Shown here: positions 13,578-54,088 of the stretch, piece after piece
How positions within the stretch are numbered: position 1 is the first letter of the stretch
How the letters are laid out: each line of letters opens with the position of its first letter
Source: Larkinella soli
GTDB taxonomy: Bacteria; Bacteroidota; Bacteroidia; Cytophagales; Spirosomataceae
Assembly: GCF_003703975.1 (NCBI RefSeq)
Contig: NZ_QTJY01000005.1
Span: forward strand, 1 to 64,000
DNA length: 64,000 nucleotides
Direction: 5' to 3'
The notes under the pieces: generated by a model
Told to the model about the DNA's origin: nothing
Seen by the model: the letters and a program-made list of their open reading frames with translations, nothing else
Database searches by the model: none
Program-made: the position numbers and the translations under genes

Positions 13578-13672
13578 ATTGTTGAATGATAGAATGATTG
13601 AATGGGCGCTGCCTATTCTGCACTGCGAAGCCCATTCTATCATTCAACAATTCCATCATTCAATCATTTAAA
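13569..13672. repeat. ATTGTTGAATG palindromic repeat, copy 1
   Basis: A perfect 20-bp inverted repeat (13577-13596 and 13633-13652) flanks a 36-nt centre containing GCGCTGCC, ATTCTG and GCGAAGC. More gaatgattg/caatcatt sequence extends outside. The element holds the stop codons of both convergent neighbours. The same arms and centre, in inverse orientation, occur at 51955-52048. Confidence 0.85.
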
Positions 13673-50057: not shown

Positions 50058-50459
50058 TCAGAAGTCGATTTTCCGTCTTCCTTCCTTCACTTCCCGGCGT
50101 TTCCGTTTCTCTCCCAGCCGCTCCTCCTTCGAGGCTTTGGTCGGTTTGGTGACCCGGCGCGGTTTAGGCTTCTCGAAGGCTTTCCGGATGAGTTGACAGA
50201 ACTTTTCGGTCACCTTGTCGCGGTTGGCGAGCTGCGACCGTTCGGTCTGGTGATACAGCACCAGTACGCCCTCCGTGGTCAGTTTGCCGGCCAGCTTTTC
50301 CAGCAATACCGCCTTTTCTTCCTCACCCAGCAGGGCCGAGTTCGGAACGTCGAAATACAGCTCCGCCTTGGTCGAAACCTTATTGACGTTCTGACCGCCT
50401 TTGCCGCCACTGCGGGCAAACTGAAACTGCAATTCCGGAAAAAGTCGTGTGGGGTCCAT
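50058..50459 (-). CDS. arfB: Alternative ribosome-rescue factor ArfB (YaeJ)
   Basis: 133-aa peptidyl-tRNA hydrolase that rescues ribosomes stalled on messages without a stop codon. The release-factor GGQ motif is at residues 21-23 within FARSGGKGGQNVNKV. The C-terminal tail is basic and disordered (KPKPRRVTKP, EKRKRREVKEGRRK), as needed to enter the empty mRNA channel. Length and order are typical. It is transcribed divergently from the small-protein array. Confidence 0.95.
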   Translation of the reverse strand: MDPTRLFPELQFQFARSGGKGGQNVNKVSTKAELYFDVPNSALLGEEEKAVLLEKLAGKLTTEGVLVLYHQTERSQLANRDKVTEKFCQLIRKAFEKPKPRRVTKPTKASKEERLGEKRKRREVKEGRRKIDF

Positions 50460-50505
50460 GCGCGTTACGGCCGGTTTGTTTAATCATTTTTATCCAAATA
50501 CCGGC

Positions 50506-50513
50506 CAAAGGTA
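50506..50513 (-). promoter_or_regulatory. TAnnTTTG -7 box for arfB
   Basis: TACCTTTG on the minus strand, perfect match about 47 nt upstream of arfB, within the divergent gap with the array. Confidence 0.45.
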
Positions 50514-50582
50514 CAAACAATCGAACAGGCTCAGGGTTCTTTCATACTACAACCGCCCGACGAATACCAAACAGGCAACGAC

Positions 50583-50918
50583 ATGGCACACCACGAAAAA
50601 ATCGATACGATGCTCGACGATACCAACCAGGCGCTCGGCGGAGGGGCCCCCTCGTCGACCACGGCCGAGGGCGTCAATCTGGTAGAAGACTGGATCGTGA
50701 TCCTCCGAACCCAGCCCGAATGGACCACGGTCGTTCCGGCGCTCGAACAGCTTCGGGATGCCCTCGACGGTGACGACCTGGTGGCGGTTCAGCGACTGCT
50801 GAAAGACATCGCCGACCAGACGGCCGTCATTGCCACAAACGCCACCGGCGACAGTCGTCACGGCCTCAACCAACTGGTCGAAAACCTTCGGGATTTCAGC
50901 CGGGCCATGGCCAAATAA
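50583..50918 (+). CDS. Small helical paralogue 1 of the pfkB-linked array
   Basis: 111-aa acidic, cysteine-free, cytoplasmic-type protein with no known family. It is the first of six tandem relatives. The shared pattern is an N-terminal helix, then G-x-x-L-[VI]-x-x-W-[IL] (here GVNLVEDWIVIL), a helix LEQLRDAL, a helix VQRLLKDIADQT and a final helix LNQLVENLRDFSRAM. It should fold as a small helical bundle. It opens the operon, 123 bp from divergent arfB, and is followed after 31 bp by the second member. Confidence 0.8.
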   Translation: MAHHEKIDTMLDDTNQALGGGAPSSTTAEGVNLVEDWIVILRTQPEWTTVVPALEQLRDALDGDDLVAVQRLLKDIADQTAVIATNATGDSRHGLNQLVENLRDFSRAMAK

Positions 50919-50949
50919 ACGAAACACCTTAAACGAAGTTATACAGATC

Positions 50950-51516
50950 ATGGCATCTCAGCCCTCAACCCAGCTGATCAACACCACGACGCAGGTATTC
51001 AACGGCGCCGTTTCCTCCGTTTCCCCCCAGGACGGTATCTCGCTGATCGACAACTGGATCACGGCCATTCGCAGCGGTGGAGACAACGGAAACGCCCAGC
51101 AGGTGGCCGGAACGCTCCAGGAACTGAAAAACCTGCTCCAGGCCGGTAACCCCGATACCCAGCAGATCAAGGAAACCCTGCATAACCTGGCTTCCCAGAC
51201 GGAAGACGCGGCCCAATCGGCCGATGAGGTGATCGAACCGCAACTCAACCAGCTGGCCAAGTCCCTGCGGTCCTTCGGACACCTGATTGCCGGGGAGCCC
51301 CATGAAGGCGCCGGCGAGGAGGATTTCATGCAGGGCCGCGGGCAGATATTCACCCAGACCGGCACCGGCAGCGCGGCCGGCAACGCGGGTGCCCCGGAAA
51401 TGGGCACCGGTGCCACAGCCGCAGGCGCCCCGGATTCCGGACCGAGTGAGCCTACCGGCGCCGGCCCCGAACGCAGTTCGACCGGCGAGGGCGGAGGCAA
51501 CAGCCGGCAGCTGTAA
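50950..51516 (+). CDS. Small helical paralogue 2, with a long disordered tail
   Basis: 188-aa member of the array. Residues 1 to about 112 are the common module: TQLINTTTQVF, SPQDGISLIDNWI, LQELKNLLQAGNPD, IKETLHNLASQTED and LNQLAKSLRSFGHLI. Residues about 113-188 are a unique low-complexity tail of Gly, Ala, Ser, Thr and Pro (FTQTGTGSAAGNAG, PSEPTGAGPERSSTGEG). It is the only member with such a tail, which could serve as linker or scaffold segment. The start is supported by alignment with the other copies. No cysteine or export signal is seen. Confidence 0.8.
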   Translation: MASQPSTQLINTTTQVFNGAVSSVSPQDGISLIDNWITAIRSGGDNGNAQQVAGTLQELKNLLQAGNPDTQQIKETLHNLASQTEDAAQSADEVIEPQLNQLAKSLRSFGHLIAGEPHEGAGEEDFMQGRGQIFTQTGTGSAAGNAGAPEMGTGATAAGAPDSGPSEPTGAGPERSSTGEGGGNSRQL

Positions 51517-51588
51517 AGACGTCGGGGCCGGATCGAAAGCGGTTCCGACCTCACTAATTAGTTCGTATATTCACAATAGTTACAACGT

Positions 51589-51942
51589 ATGGCAAACCAA
51601 CATTCTCAGGCTCCGCACGCCAACGCCGTGACGCTGATCGATTCGACGATGCAGTCGTTCGACGGCGGGCCGCTTTCTATTTCAAGCCAGGAAGGGCTGT
51701 CGCTCATCAACGACTGGCTTCATTCCCTTAAAACCTCCGAAGCCGACAACATTGCCGGAACGCTCCAGAAACTGAAAGCCGCTTTGCAGGAGCCCATGAT
51801 CGACAATGTTCACGTCAAAAACATTCTGCTGGGCCTGGCCGAGCAGACCGAACGCTGGGTCCCGCAGGCGGGCGGAGAATTCCCGGCCCGGCTTCAGAAC
51901 CTGGCCACGGCTTTAAGGAACTTCGGAAACCAACTAGCGTAA
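51589..51942 (+). CDS. Small helical paralogue 3
   Basis: 117-aa member of the array. The common module is complete: NAVTLIDSTMQSFDGGPLSIS, SQEGLSLINDWLHSL, GTLQKLKAALQEP, VKNILLGLAEQTER and LQNLATALRNFGNQLA. Relative to copy 2 it has a few extra residues at the N-terminus and lacks the GNPD turn (EPMID instead). It is cytoplasmic by lack of a signal peptide. The function is unknown. The gene is separated from copy 4 by a palindromic repeat. Confidence 0.8.
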   Translation: MANQHSQAPHANAVTLIDSTMQSFDGGPLSISSQEGLSLINDWLHSLKTSEADNIAGTLQKLKAALQEPMIDNVHVKNILLGLAEQTERWVPQAGGEFPARLQNLATALRNFGNQLA

Positions 51943-51954
51943 TCAATTTTTGAA

Positions 51955-52048
51955 TAAATGAATTGTTGAATGATTGAATGAAGCTTCGCGGTGCTCAGAA
52001 TGGCAGCGCTTATTCAACAATTCAATCATTCAACAACTCAACAATTTG
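51955..52048. repeat. ATTGTTGAATG palindromic repeat, copy 2
   Basis: TTGTTGAATGATTGAAT (51963-51979) pairs with ATTCAATCATTCAACAA (52020-52036). The centre, read on the minus strand, contains GCGCTGCC, ATTCTG and GCGAAGC in the same order as copy 1 at 13569. It is inserted between two members of the paralogue array. Confidence 0.85.
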
Positions 52049-52055
52049 TCCTCTC

Positions 52056-52394
52056 ATGCCTTCGAACGCACTAACCCAGACCACCATACGAGCGACGCTC
52101 AGCACCTTGCAGGGAGACGGCCCTGCCGATGTTTCACCCCGCGACGGTCTATCGATTATCGATGACTGGCTGAAGGTCATCGGCGAGTCGCAGCCGGCGG
52201 CTACGCTTCGGCAGGAACTGATGCAGCTCCGGTCCATGCTGATGATGCCCAATCCCGACACGGACCAGCTGAAGCAGTTGCTCGGCAATCTGTCCTACCG
52301 GACTCATATGCTGGCGCAGAACCTGGAGGGCCCCTGGGTTAACGACCTGGAACAGATCGCCCAGGCGCTGAATGATTTCGGTAACCAACTATAA
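52056..52394 (+). CDS. Small helical paralogue 4
   Basis: 112-aa member of the array with the module TTIRATLSTLQGDGPADVSP, RDGLSIIDDWLKVI, LMQLRSMLMMPNPDTDQLKQ, LLGNLSYRTHMLAQ and LEQIAQALNDFGNQL. The helix 4 ending FGNQL is identical to that of copy 3, suggesting a fairly recent duplication or conversion. Its start codon lies 7 bp beyond the palindromic repeat, which may now form its leader. No domain is recognised. Confidence 0.8.
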   Translation: MPSNALTQTTIRATLSTLQGDGPADVSPRDGLSIIDDWLKVIGESQPAATLRQELMQLRSMLMMPNPDTDQLKQLLGNLSYRTHMLAQNLEGPWVNDLEQIAQALNDFGNQL

Positions 52395-52404
52395 GACAGT
52401 AACC

Positions 52405-52734
52405 ATGGAACAGCCTACGGAGCTTATTACAACGACCGTTACTTCTCTGAACGACGGCGGGATTACCAGCATCATCCCGCCCGACGCGTTTCCGCTGCTC
52501 GATCAGTGGCTCGACACGCTGGAACCTTCCGGCCAGACGCAGCAGATCATCACCTCGCTCAACGATCTGAAAAGCCAGATCGACAGCGGCAACCCCGATG
52601 CGGTGGTGGTCCGTACGATCCTGCTCGACCTTTCGGACCAGACGAGCGTGCTGGCGTCCAACGCCGACGCGGACCTGCGCCGGCCACTGGCCGATCTGGC
52701 CGACGCGATCCAGACGCTGGCCACCTCTTTGTAA
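52405..52734 (+). CDS. Small helical paralogue 5
   Basis: 109-aa member of the array: TELITTTVTSLNDGGITSII, PPDAFPLLDQWLDTL, LNDLKSQIDSGNPDAVVVRT, ILLDLSDQTSVLASNADADL and LADLADAIQTLATSL. The SGNPD turn is shared with copies 2 and 4, and the ASNAD segment recalls ATNATGD of copy 1. It starts 10 bp after copy 4, consistent with co-translation. It is acidic, cysteine-free and lacks an export signal. Confidence 0.8.
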   Translation: MEQPTELITTTVTSLNDGGITSIIPPDAFPLLDQWLDTLEPSGQTQQIITSLNDLKSQIDSGNPDAVVVRTILLDLSDQTSVLASNADADLRRPLADLADAIQTLATSL

Positions 52735-52769
52735 ATCCGGCGCTTTCCGCCTAATATTGCTTTCATCTT

Positions 52770-53120
52770 ATGGCTACCCACTCTCAAACGATGGAGCTGC
52801 TCGACCGGACGCTCGACGCGCTCAGCCAGGACCCGGCTTCCAGGGCAGTGAACGACGGAAAAAGTCTGATTGCGCCCTGGATCGGTATTCTGAATGAAGC
52901 TGAAAACACCCGCCCGATGGCCGAAAAACTGTCGGAATTGCAGAAGGCCGTCGAAAACTCCGCCGGTTCGGACACGATCCAGCCGATTCTGAAGGACCTG
53001 GGTACGGCCGTGCTGGAATTCGGCGCTGAAATCGGCCCGGAAGGCGAACTGACGATTCTGATGAGGAACCTCGGGCAGGCGCTCACGACTTTGGGAGACC
53101 AACTTGTACCCACTTCATGA
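52770..53120 (+). CDS. Small helical paralogue 6 (most divergent)
   Basis: 116-aa protein that keeps the array pattern only loosely: TMELLDRTLDALSQ, NDGKSLIAPWIGIL, KLSELQKAVENSAGSD, ILKDLGTAVLEF and LMRNLGQALTTLGDQL. The G-x-x-LI-x-x-W-I motif and the final helix match best. Its stop codon overlaps the ATG of pfkB by 4 nt (ATGA), so it is translationally coupled to a glycolytic kinase. This is the strongest hint about the context in which the array works. Confidence 0.75.
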   Translation: MATHSQTMELLDRTLDALSQDPASRAVNDGKSLIAPWIGILNEAENTRPMAEKLSELQKAVENSAGSDTIQPILKDLGTAVLEFGAEIGPEGELTILMRNLGQALTTLGDQLVPTS

Positions 53121-54088
53121 CCTACCCCATCATCACGCTTACGCTCAACCCGGCGGTTGATAAAAGTACGACGGTCGATTATTTCGTAGCCGAACAGAAA
53201 CTGCGCTGCTCGACGCCCCGCTACGACGCGGGCGGAGGGGGGCTGAACGTTTCAAAAGCCCTGAAACGCCTGGGCGGACGGTCGCTGGCGTTCTTCTCGT
53301 CGGGAGGCCCTTCCGGCCAGCTGCTTCAGGATCTTCTGAAAAAGGAAGGCATCGACTTCCGGATCATCGCCACGCAGGAATGGACCCGGGAGAACTTCAT
53401 CGTTACCGAAACCCGCACTAACGCGCAATACCGCTTCGGCCTGCCCGGCCCGACGCTGACGGCTGCCGAGGCCGACGCTCTGCTGACGGCCCTGCGTGAA
53501 CTGCCTGCCCGACCCGAGTACGTCGTTGCCAGCGGAAGCCTCCCTCCCGGTCTGCCCGATGACTTTTATGGCCGCATCGCCCGGGAGGTACGCAGCCTCG
53601 GTGCCCGTTTTATTCTGGATACCTCCGGCGAACCGCTCCGGCTGGCCGCTAACGAAGGGGTGTACCTGCTGAAACCGAACCTCGGCGAACTGAGCAAGCT
53701 GGCCGGGGTCGAAAAACTCGAAGCGGATGACGTCGACGATGCGGCCAAAGCCATTATTGCCCGCGGAGATTGTGAAGTAGTGGTCGTTTCGCTGGGGCCT
53801 TCGGGGGCGTTGTATGTCACAAAAGACCAGTGCGAACACGTGCCGGCCCCGATGGTGAAGAAACTGAGTACGGTCGGCGCCGGCGACAGCATGGTGGCCG
53901 GCATGACCTGGGCGCTCTCTCAGGGCAAAACCTTCGGGGAAATGGTCCGGCTCGGGGTGGCCTGCGGATCGGCCGCGACCATGAACCCCGGCACTGAACT
54001 CTTCAAAAAAGCGGACGTCGACCGCCTGCTCGACTGGATCAACCAGTATGGAAGCCGGTATCAGTCCCTTCCCAGCCAACTCGAATAA
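53117..54088 (+). CDS. pfkB: 6-phosphofructokinase II (PfkB)
   Basis: 323-aa PfkB/ribokinase-fold kinase that phosphorylates fructose 6-phosphate in glycolysis. It follows E. coli Pfk-2 closely in motif order: LTLNPAVD at the start, KLRC then GGGGLNVSKALKRLGG (substrate and dimer region), WTRENF, YRFGLPGP, ASGSLPPG and the ATP/catalytic block TVGAGDSMVAGM with catalytic Asp257. A 1-phosphofructokinase role is less likely because of the Pfk-2-type blocks. The start overlaps the last member of the small-protein array. Confidence 0.92.
   Translation: MTYPIITLTLNPAVDKSTTVDYFVAEQKLRCSTPRYDAGGGGLNVSKALKRLGGRSLAFFSSGGPSGQLLQDLLKKEGIDFRIIATQEWTRENFIVTETRTNAQYRFGLPGPTLTAAEADALLTALRELPARPEYVVASGSLPPGLPDDFYGRIAREVRSLGARFILDTSGEPLRLAANEGVYLLKPNLGELSKLAGVEKLEADDVDDAAKAIIARGDCEVVVVSLGPSGALYVTKDQCEHVPAPMVKKLSTVGAGDSMVAGMTWALSQGKTFGEMVRLGVACGSAATMNPGTELFKKADVDRLLDWINQYGSRYQSLPSQLE

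Follow-up and report, generated by a model that had tools for sequence, protein, structure and literature searches.

Six tandem genes in the window, the stretch of 64,000 nucleotides of the Larkinella soli genome analysed here, encode homologous domains of about 110 aa each (50583-53120, + strand). In agreement with the initial annotation, which had recognised no family for them, profile searches found no curated model of the domain in the libraries used (Pfam, NCBIfam, PHROGs and PADLOC). In related bacteria, up to ten diverged copies of this one domain keep their identity and their order across genera, copies have been lost with decayed remnants left behind, and a fusion of the types A and B never occurs beside a free B. 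Given the kept order and the A+B fusion, the paralogues are best read as putative hetero-oligomeric subunits. Our preferred reading, which we hold tentatively, is a cytosolic heteromeric adaptor or scaffold built of paralogue subunits that would not be interchangeable, the window array being a reduced inherited set. If such an assembly exists, these environmental bacteria would possess a novel heteromeric machine. The array is better organised than a first reading of its letters could show.

The genes and their surroundings are as follows (open reading frames start at the ATGs that match the lengths given in the initial annotation):
50058-50459, − strand: arfB, alternative ribosome rescue factor (NCBIfam NF006718, 138.3 bits, cut-off 100)
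50460-50582: divergent intergenic region between arfB and the array, with the presumed promoter or promoters; contains CAAA..TA pointing to arfB
50583-50918, + strand: g1, type B, 111 aa (open reading frame, homology, tree)
50950-51516, + strand: g2, type E, 188 aa, domain plus a Gly-rich tail of about 70 aa (open reading frame, homology, tree)
51589-51942, + strand: g3, type F, 117 aa (homology, tree, AlphaFold2 model)
51943-52055: g3-g4 intergenic region with an inverted repeat
52056-52394, + strand: g4, type H4, 112 aa (homology, tree)
52405-52734, + strand: g5, type 5, 109 aa (homology, tree)
52770-53120, + strand: g6, type J, 116 aa (homology, tree)
53117-54088, + strand: pfkB-family hexose kinase (TIGR03168, 305.2 bits, cut-off 216.4), no conserved part of the array

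The inverted repeat between g3 and g4 is AT-rich, with arms of 21-25 nt at about 51947-51971 and 52012-52036, and one arm has a two-mismatch relative at 13654-13671 of the window. A seventh copy of the domain is present elsewhere in the same genome (G000:C3:63313-63639; L023 9802-10212, − strand). A histidine kinase gene precedes it by 20-92 bp, depending on the start codon, and genes for a MacB/FtsX permease and a LytTR response regulator lie nearby.

The shared domain and its comparison with known proteins

The six consecutive genes had been described as related, and this was borne out. Smith-Waterman z values were 6.7-24.5 for the 15 pairs of g1-g6 (g2 trimmed to 118 aa), and in 15/15 pairs none of 500 shuffles reached the real score. 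Moreover, leave-one-out HMMs, in which five copies have to find the sixth, gave E-values of 1.5e-26 to 3.6e-12. The module proposed from the first reading is shared by all copies, but two of its motifs had been overstated: GNPD is literally present only in g2 and g5 (PNPD in g4) and LAxALRxFG only in g3. Six columns are invariant in g1-g6 (M1, T14, W37, L54, L57 and L73). The proteins are acidic (pI 4.05-5.39) and free of cysteine, as had been stated, and export signals are absent as judged by eye.

Across the family, 12 columns are conserved at 80% or more. They comprise T14, G30, W37 and nine Leu, a composition in which we see no catalytic set. Beside them, each of the seven paralogue groups tested has 3-16 conserved columns of its own. 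The alignment thus presents the domain as what appears to be a shared core with diverged positions and no visible active site. The array genes are under purifying selection: comparing g1-g6 with three other Larkinella arrays, dN/dS was 0.04-0.38 in 15 of 18 comparisons, with dS near saturation, and the other three yielded no dS. In the same comparison g1 was the best conserved copy (81-86% identity to its three Larkinella orthologues) and g6 the least conserved copy of the window (41-45%). Codon usage did not indicate high expression of g1-g6 (CAI 0.505-0.671 versus 0.615-0.738 for 19 other open reading frames of the window), the test being weak because the ribosomal-region reference itself scores only 0.60-0.80.

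Single copies had been predicted to be helical, and the AlphaFold2 models agree with this. Five helices were obtained both for g1 (25 rows, mean pLDDT 83.8, pTM 0.75) and for g3 (107 rows, mean pLDDT 82.2, pTM 0.73). A Foldseek search of both models against the PDB gave no match at E<=0.001 among the best 50 rows of each list. The helical bundles 2rld (S23 family), 1x91 (PMEI) and 6yo8 (14-3-3) reached TM-scores by query length of 0.47, 0.46 and 0.50, but their E-values of 0.73, 0.37 and 0.91 are not significant.

We also searched the family libraries for related proteins. In Pfam, g1 gave a sub-threshold match to CATASP and the remaining matches were weak single rows. In NCBIfam, with 46 members of the family searched, 12 families were matched by one member each (best E 3e-4), and PHROGs and PADLOC each gave one weak single-member match at E<=0.001. 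A PDB sequence search with A2 returned chiefly coiled coils and designed bundles, a plasmid search with g4 (tblastn) returned zero matches, and in the open-licence literature we found no paper recognisably on this domain family.

The match of g1 to CATASP (CATRA-associated small protein, Pfam PF20271), likewise a small protein, covers 55 of 86 profile positions at E 4.5e-4 and raised the question of identity. However, its 20.5 bits stay below the gathering score of 29 bits, and wider searches of members and genomes did not support the assignment: E<=0.01 was seen in only 2 of 46 members, and none of 19 relatives was over the cut-off, one lying below it; 14 control genomes likewise had none. 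A passage of PMC8195603 presents CATRA as a caspase-dependent ternary conflict system. Among ten window neighbours, scanned with a profile set that lacked CATRA profiles, there were no CATRA system genes.

Proteins of the WXG100/ESAT-6 group carry a WxG motif in a two-helix hairpin. The array proteins resemble them in their size of about 100 aa, their helical character, a conserved Trp and their tandem genes, and EsxA chains (E 0.009-0.011) and ESAT6_3 (1 of 46 members) came up as weak noise in profile searches. On the other hand, W.G is found in only one of the six array proteins (g6) and the two models have five helices instead of a hairpin, and we therefore do not count them as members.

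Stress protection by hydrophilin- or LEA-like proteins, with dosage being decisive, would fit small, acidic and Cys-free products and the Gly-rich, probably disordered tail of g2. Hydrophilins have a GRAVY below about −1 and more than 6% Gly. The values of g1-g6 (−0.55 to 0.01) fall short of this, which speaks against hydrophilin membership, and the five-helix models are folded. Furthermore, diverged paralogues in a fixed order do not look like a recent amplification. We regard stress protection as unlikely.

A C-terminal tail of 47-148 aa was present on 28/28 type E copies, the copy of L062 included. Several of these tails have QGGGSYGSGYGTGS in common, which is absent from the tail of g2 in the window. 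QGGGSYGSGYGTGS also occurs in another, separate small acidic protein of the window's genome (G000:C23:35934-36011; L138 1486-1923, − strand), and a match of this kind lies outside the array of a second Larkinella genome (G016:C6).

Paralogue types, their order and their loss

Arrays were defined as at least three copies in one place, and 27 of them, from 27 genomes, were found among the window and 40 chosen loci (39 from listed matches of the family-genome search and one from another search). Two genomes were left out: G067, which is 71% complete and has 3 matches, and G055, whose copies lie in two places (L062 and L134) but which still counts toward the 12 genomes that have a free B. In a tree of 186 domains the copies group by type and not by genome. 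The types A-J were named from the ten-copy array L059, and in these terms the window array is B, E, F, H4, 5, J.

The clades common to several genera had supports of 0.90-1.00 for B, D, F, H and J; those left unmerged were supported at 1.0 (B), 1.0 (D), 0.988 (F) and 0.97 (J). All 23 arrays with at least two of these four clades show the order B-D-F-J, and the other four arrays hold one or none of them. When subtypes were merged by hand (A/A2, E/E2/E3 and H/H4) and type 5 was placed after H to fit, 27/27 arrays followed a single order; the count of 23/23 avoids merging. H4 is the sister of G+H+I and not of H alone, and several deep nodes are poorly supported. Type E was present in all 27 arrays and type J in 24, and among the loci in the tree the type 5 clade was found only in the genera g1 and g26. 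This conservation of order suggests that each copy may have its own part in one common job.

A one-to-six duplication had been assumed for the window, which overlooks that relatives have up to ten copies, with array sizes running from ten down to one, and that the window array looks reduced. In three Larkinella loci (L028-L030) only the J copy remains, and single copies in loci of the genus g32 (L131-L133) fall with J (clade support 0.948). Loss of B was directly visible. In L027, L060 and L061, blastn detected decayed B sequence at the expected site in the arfB-array intergenic region, using four B genes from several genera as queries; three control genes gave no match, and as these all came from the window they are the weaker side of the test. 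These three loci give a snapshot of array shrinkage. In L032, remains of B were visible by eye and blastn gave no match.

At E<=0.001, the domain was detected in 41 of 121 sampled Spirosomataceae genomes (11 of 36 genera), in 69 of 291 genomes of the order and in 7 of 296 of the phylum. Named records of type F copies come from Spirosoma, Fibrisoma, Fibrella, Fibrivirga, Rudanella, Larkinella, a Cytophagales MAG and "Flavobacterium sp. SUN052". The 23 domains sampled at loci of other families all join outside the 186 Spirosomataceae domains, an outer position that depends on the midpoint rooting of our trees (FastTree, short domain), and the expansion of the array looks internal to Spirosomataceae on this evidence. 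In the loci fetched outside this family, members occur as single genes, as pairs or, in one case, as a group of three. The trio belongs to G592, from the same phylum outside the class (three adjacent distant copies, L128 5981-7254, − strand), and is possibly an independent small array.

The neighbouring genes pfkB and arfB

In the window, the last copy and pfkB overlap by 4 nt (52770-53120 and 53117-54088), as had been noted. The initial annotation regarded the array as locked to this gene. The neighbourhood survey contradicts this, with pfkB adjoining only 3 of 27 arrays, those of the window, L031 and L056, which represent three genera. In L031 and L056, pfkB likewise lies 3′ of the array and its product is 72.8% and 72.5% identical, respectively, to that of the window. 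In six of nine Larkinella genomes searched, the best pfkB match was 60-64% identical and on a contig other than that of the array. Two more, G100 and G058, had no pfkB match at E<=1e-40, and G100 keeps a six-gene array.

The copies could be regulators or a scaffold of PfkB that bind the co-encoded kinase, for which the overlap and the recurrence of pfkB 3′ of the array in three genera would speak. However, with 24/27 arrays lacking an adjoining pfkB and six copies kept in G100, we consider this the least probable of the explanations. The linkage may be local, or a remnant of an older arrangement that three genera retain. The array is independent of pfkB, and the neighbouring kinase looks incidental. 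What stands of the earlier interpretation is one uncurated family of diverged paralogues that look like a set of subunits, by their kept order and the A+B fusion.

The commonest neighbour is a divergent arfB, located within 310 bp of 20 of the 27 arrays and also remaining beside the single-copy loci L028-L030. The sequence CAAA..TA occurs in 17 of 23 arfB-array intergenic regions, compared to a mean of 2.0 and a maximum of 7 in 200 shuffles, which keep base composition only; five patterns were tried. CAAA..TA is the −7 element of Bacteroidota in reverse complement, orientated toward arfB. The forward element TA..TTTG toward the array was found in 0/23 regions. A module that is co-regulated or functions together with arfB in ribosome rescue would explain the close divergent arrangement, its persistence at single-copy loci and a shared promoter-like element. 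Against this, five arrays have no arfB in the fetched stretch and in two it lies 1.3 and 4.8 kb away, and the orientation of the element allows it to be arfB's own promoter, making such a module highly unlikely.

The A+B fusion and the proposed assembly

A fusion protein of 240-253 aa, consisting of an A-type and a B-type domain and unlinked to the array, was found in 8 of 121 genomes. A and B are neighbours in the order of the array. In all eight fusion genomes the array lacks B, the fusion was never found where B is free (12 genomes), and 8 of 16 genomes with a B-less array are without it (fusion versus free B, Fisher p 0.008, uncorrected for kinship). An A2-type copy is still present in the array of five of the eight; the fusion excludes B only. 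For each domain, the six fused proteins in the tree fall into a single clade, which may point to one event. Gene fusion is commonly read as a sign of interaction, and on this reasoning A and B probably bind each other.

We thus propose that the paralogues of this five-helix domain, in which no active site is visible, would assemble with each other, A pairing with B most clearly, and that type E would contribute its Gly-rich tail. The assembly itself, its cytosolic location and its role as an adaptor or scaffold are what we infer. A kept order can, however, also arise by inheritance without rearrangement, and arrays reduced to one J copy (L028-L030) argue that the full set is not essential. A more elaborate version, in which Spirosomataceae would build an assembly from up to ten paralogues, each with a place of its own, and the gene order would have been fixed before the genera diverged, with A and B fused and moved out in one lineage and the E tail serving as a hook, is possible but rather doubtful.

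Alternatively, the copies could be independent adaptors or inhibitors, that is, monomeric or homodimeric helical binders with one target each, and the array the birthplace of their specificities. The group-specific conserved columns, the patchy loss of single types, the unequal constraint on g1 and g6 and the non-significant resemblance to binder folds (PMEI and a 14-3-3 half) are in line with this. The A+B fusion, absent where B is free, and the long-retained adjacency and order argue against it. We consider independent binders a real but rather doubtful alternative, and place most weight on the heteromeric adaptor or scaffold.

For such a heteromeric set, the series of array sizes from ten down to one and the A+B fusion form a ready-made natural test set. 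No partner was common to the surroundings of the singletons, of the distant members and of six of the eight loci with the fusion. Near the fusion, genes resembling a two-component system and an exporter were seen by eye in two loci only, both of genus g3.
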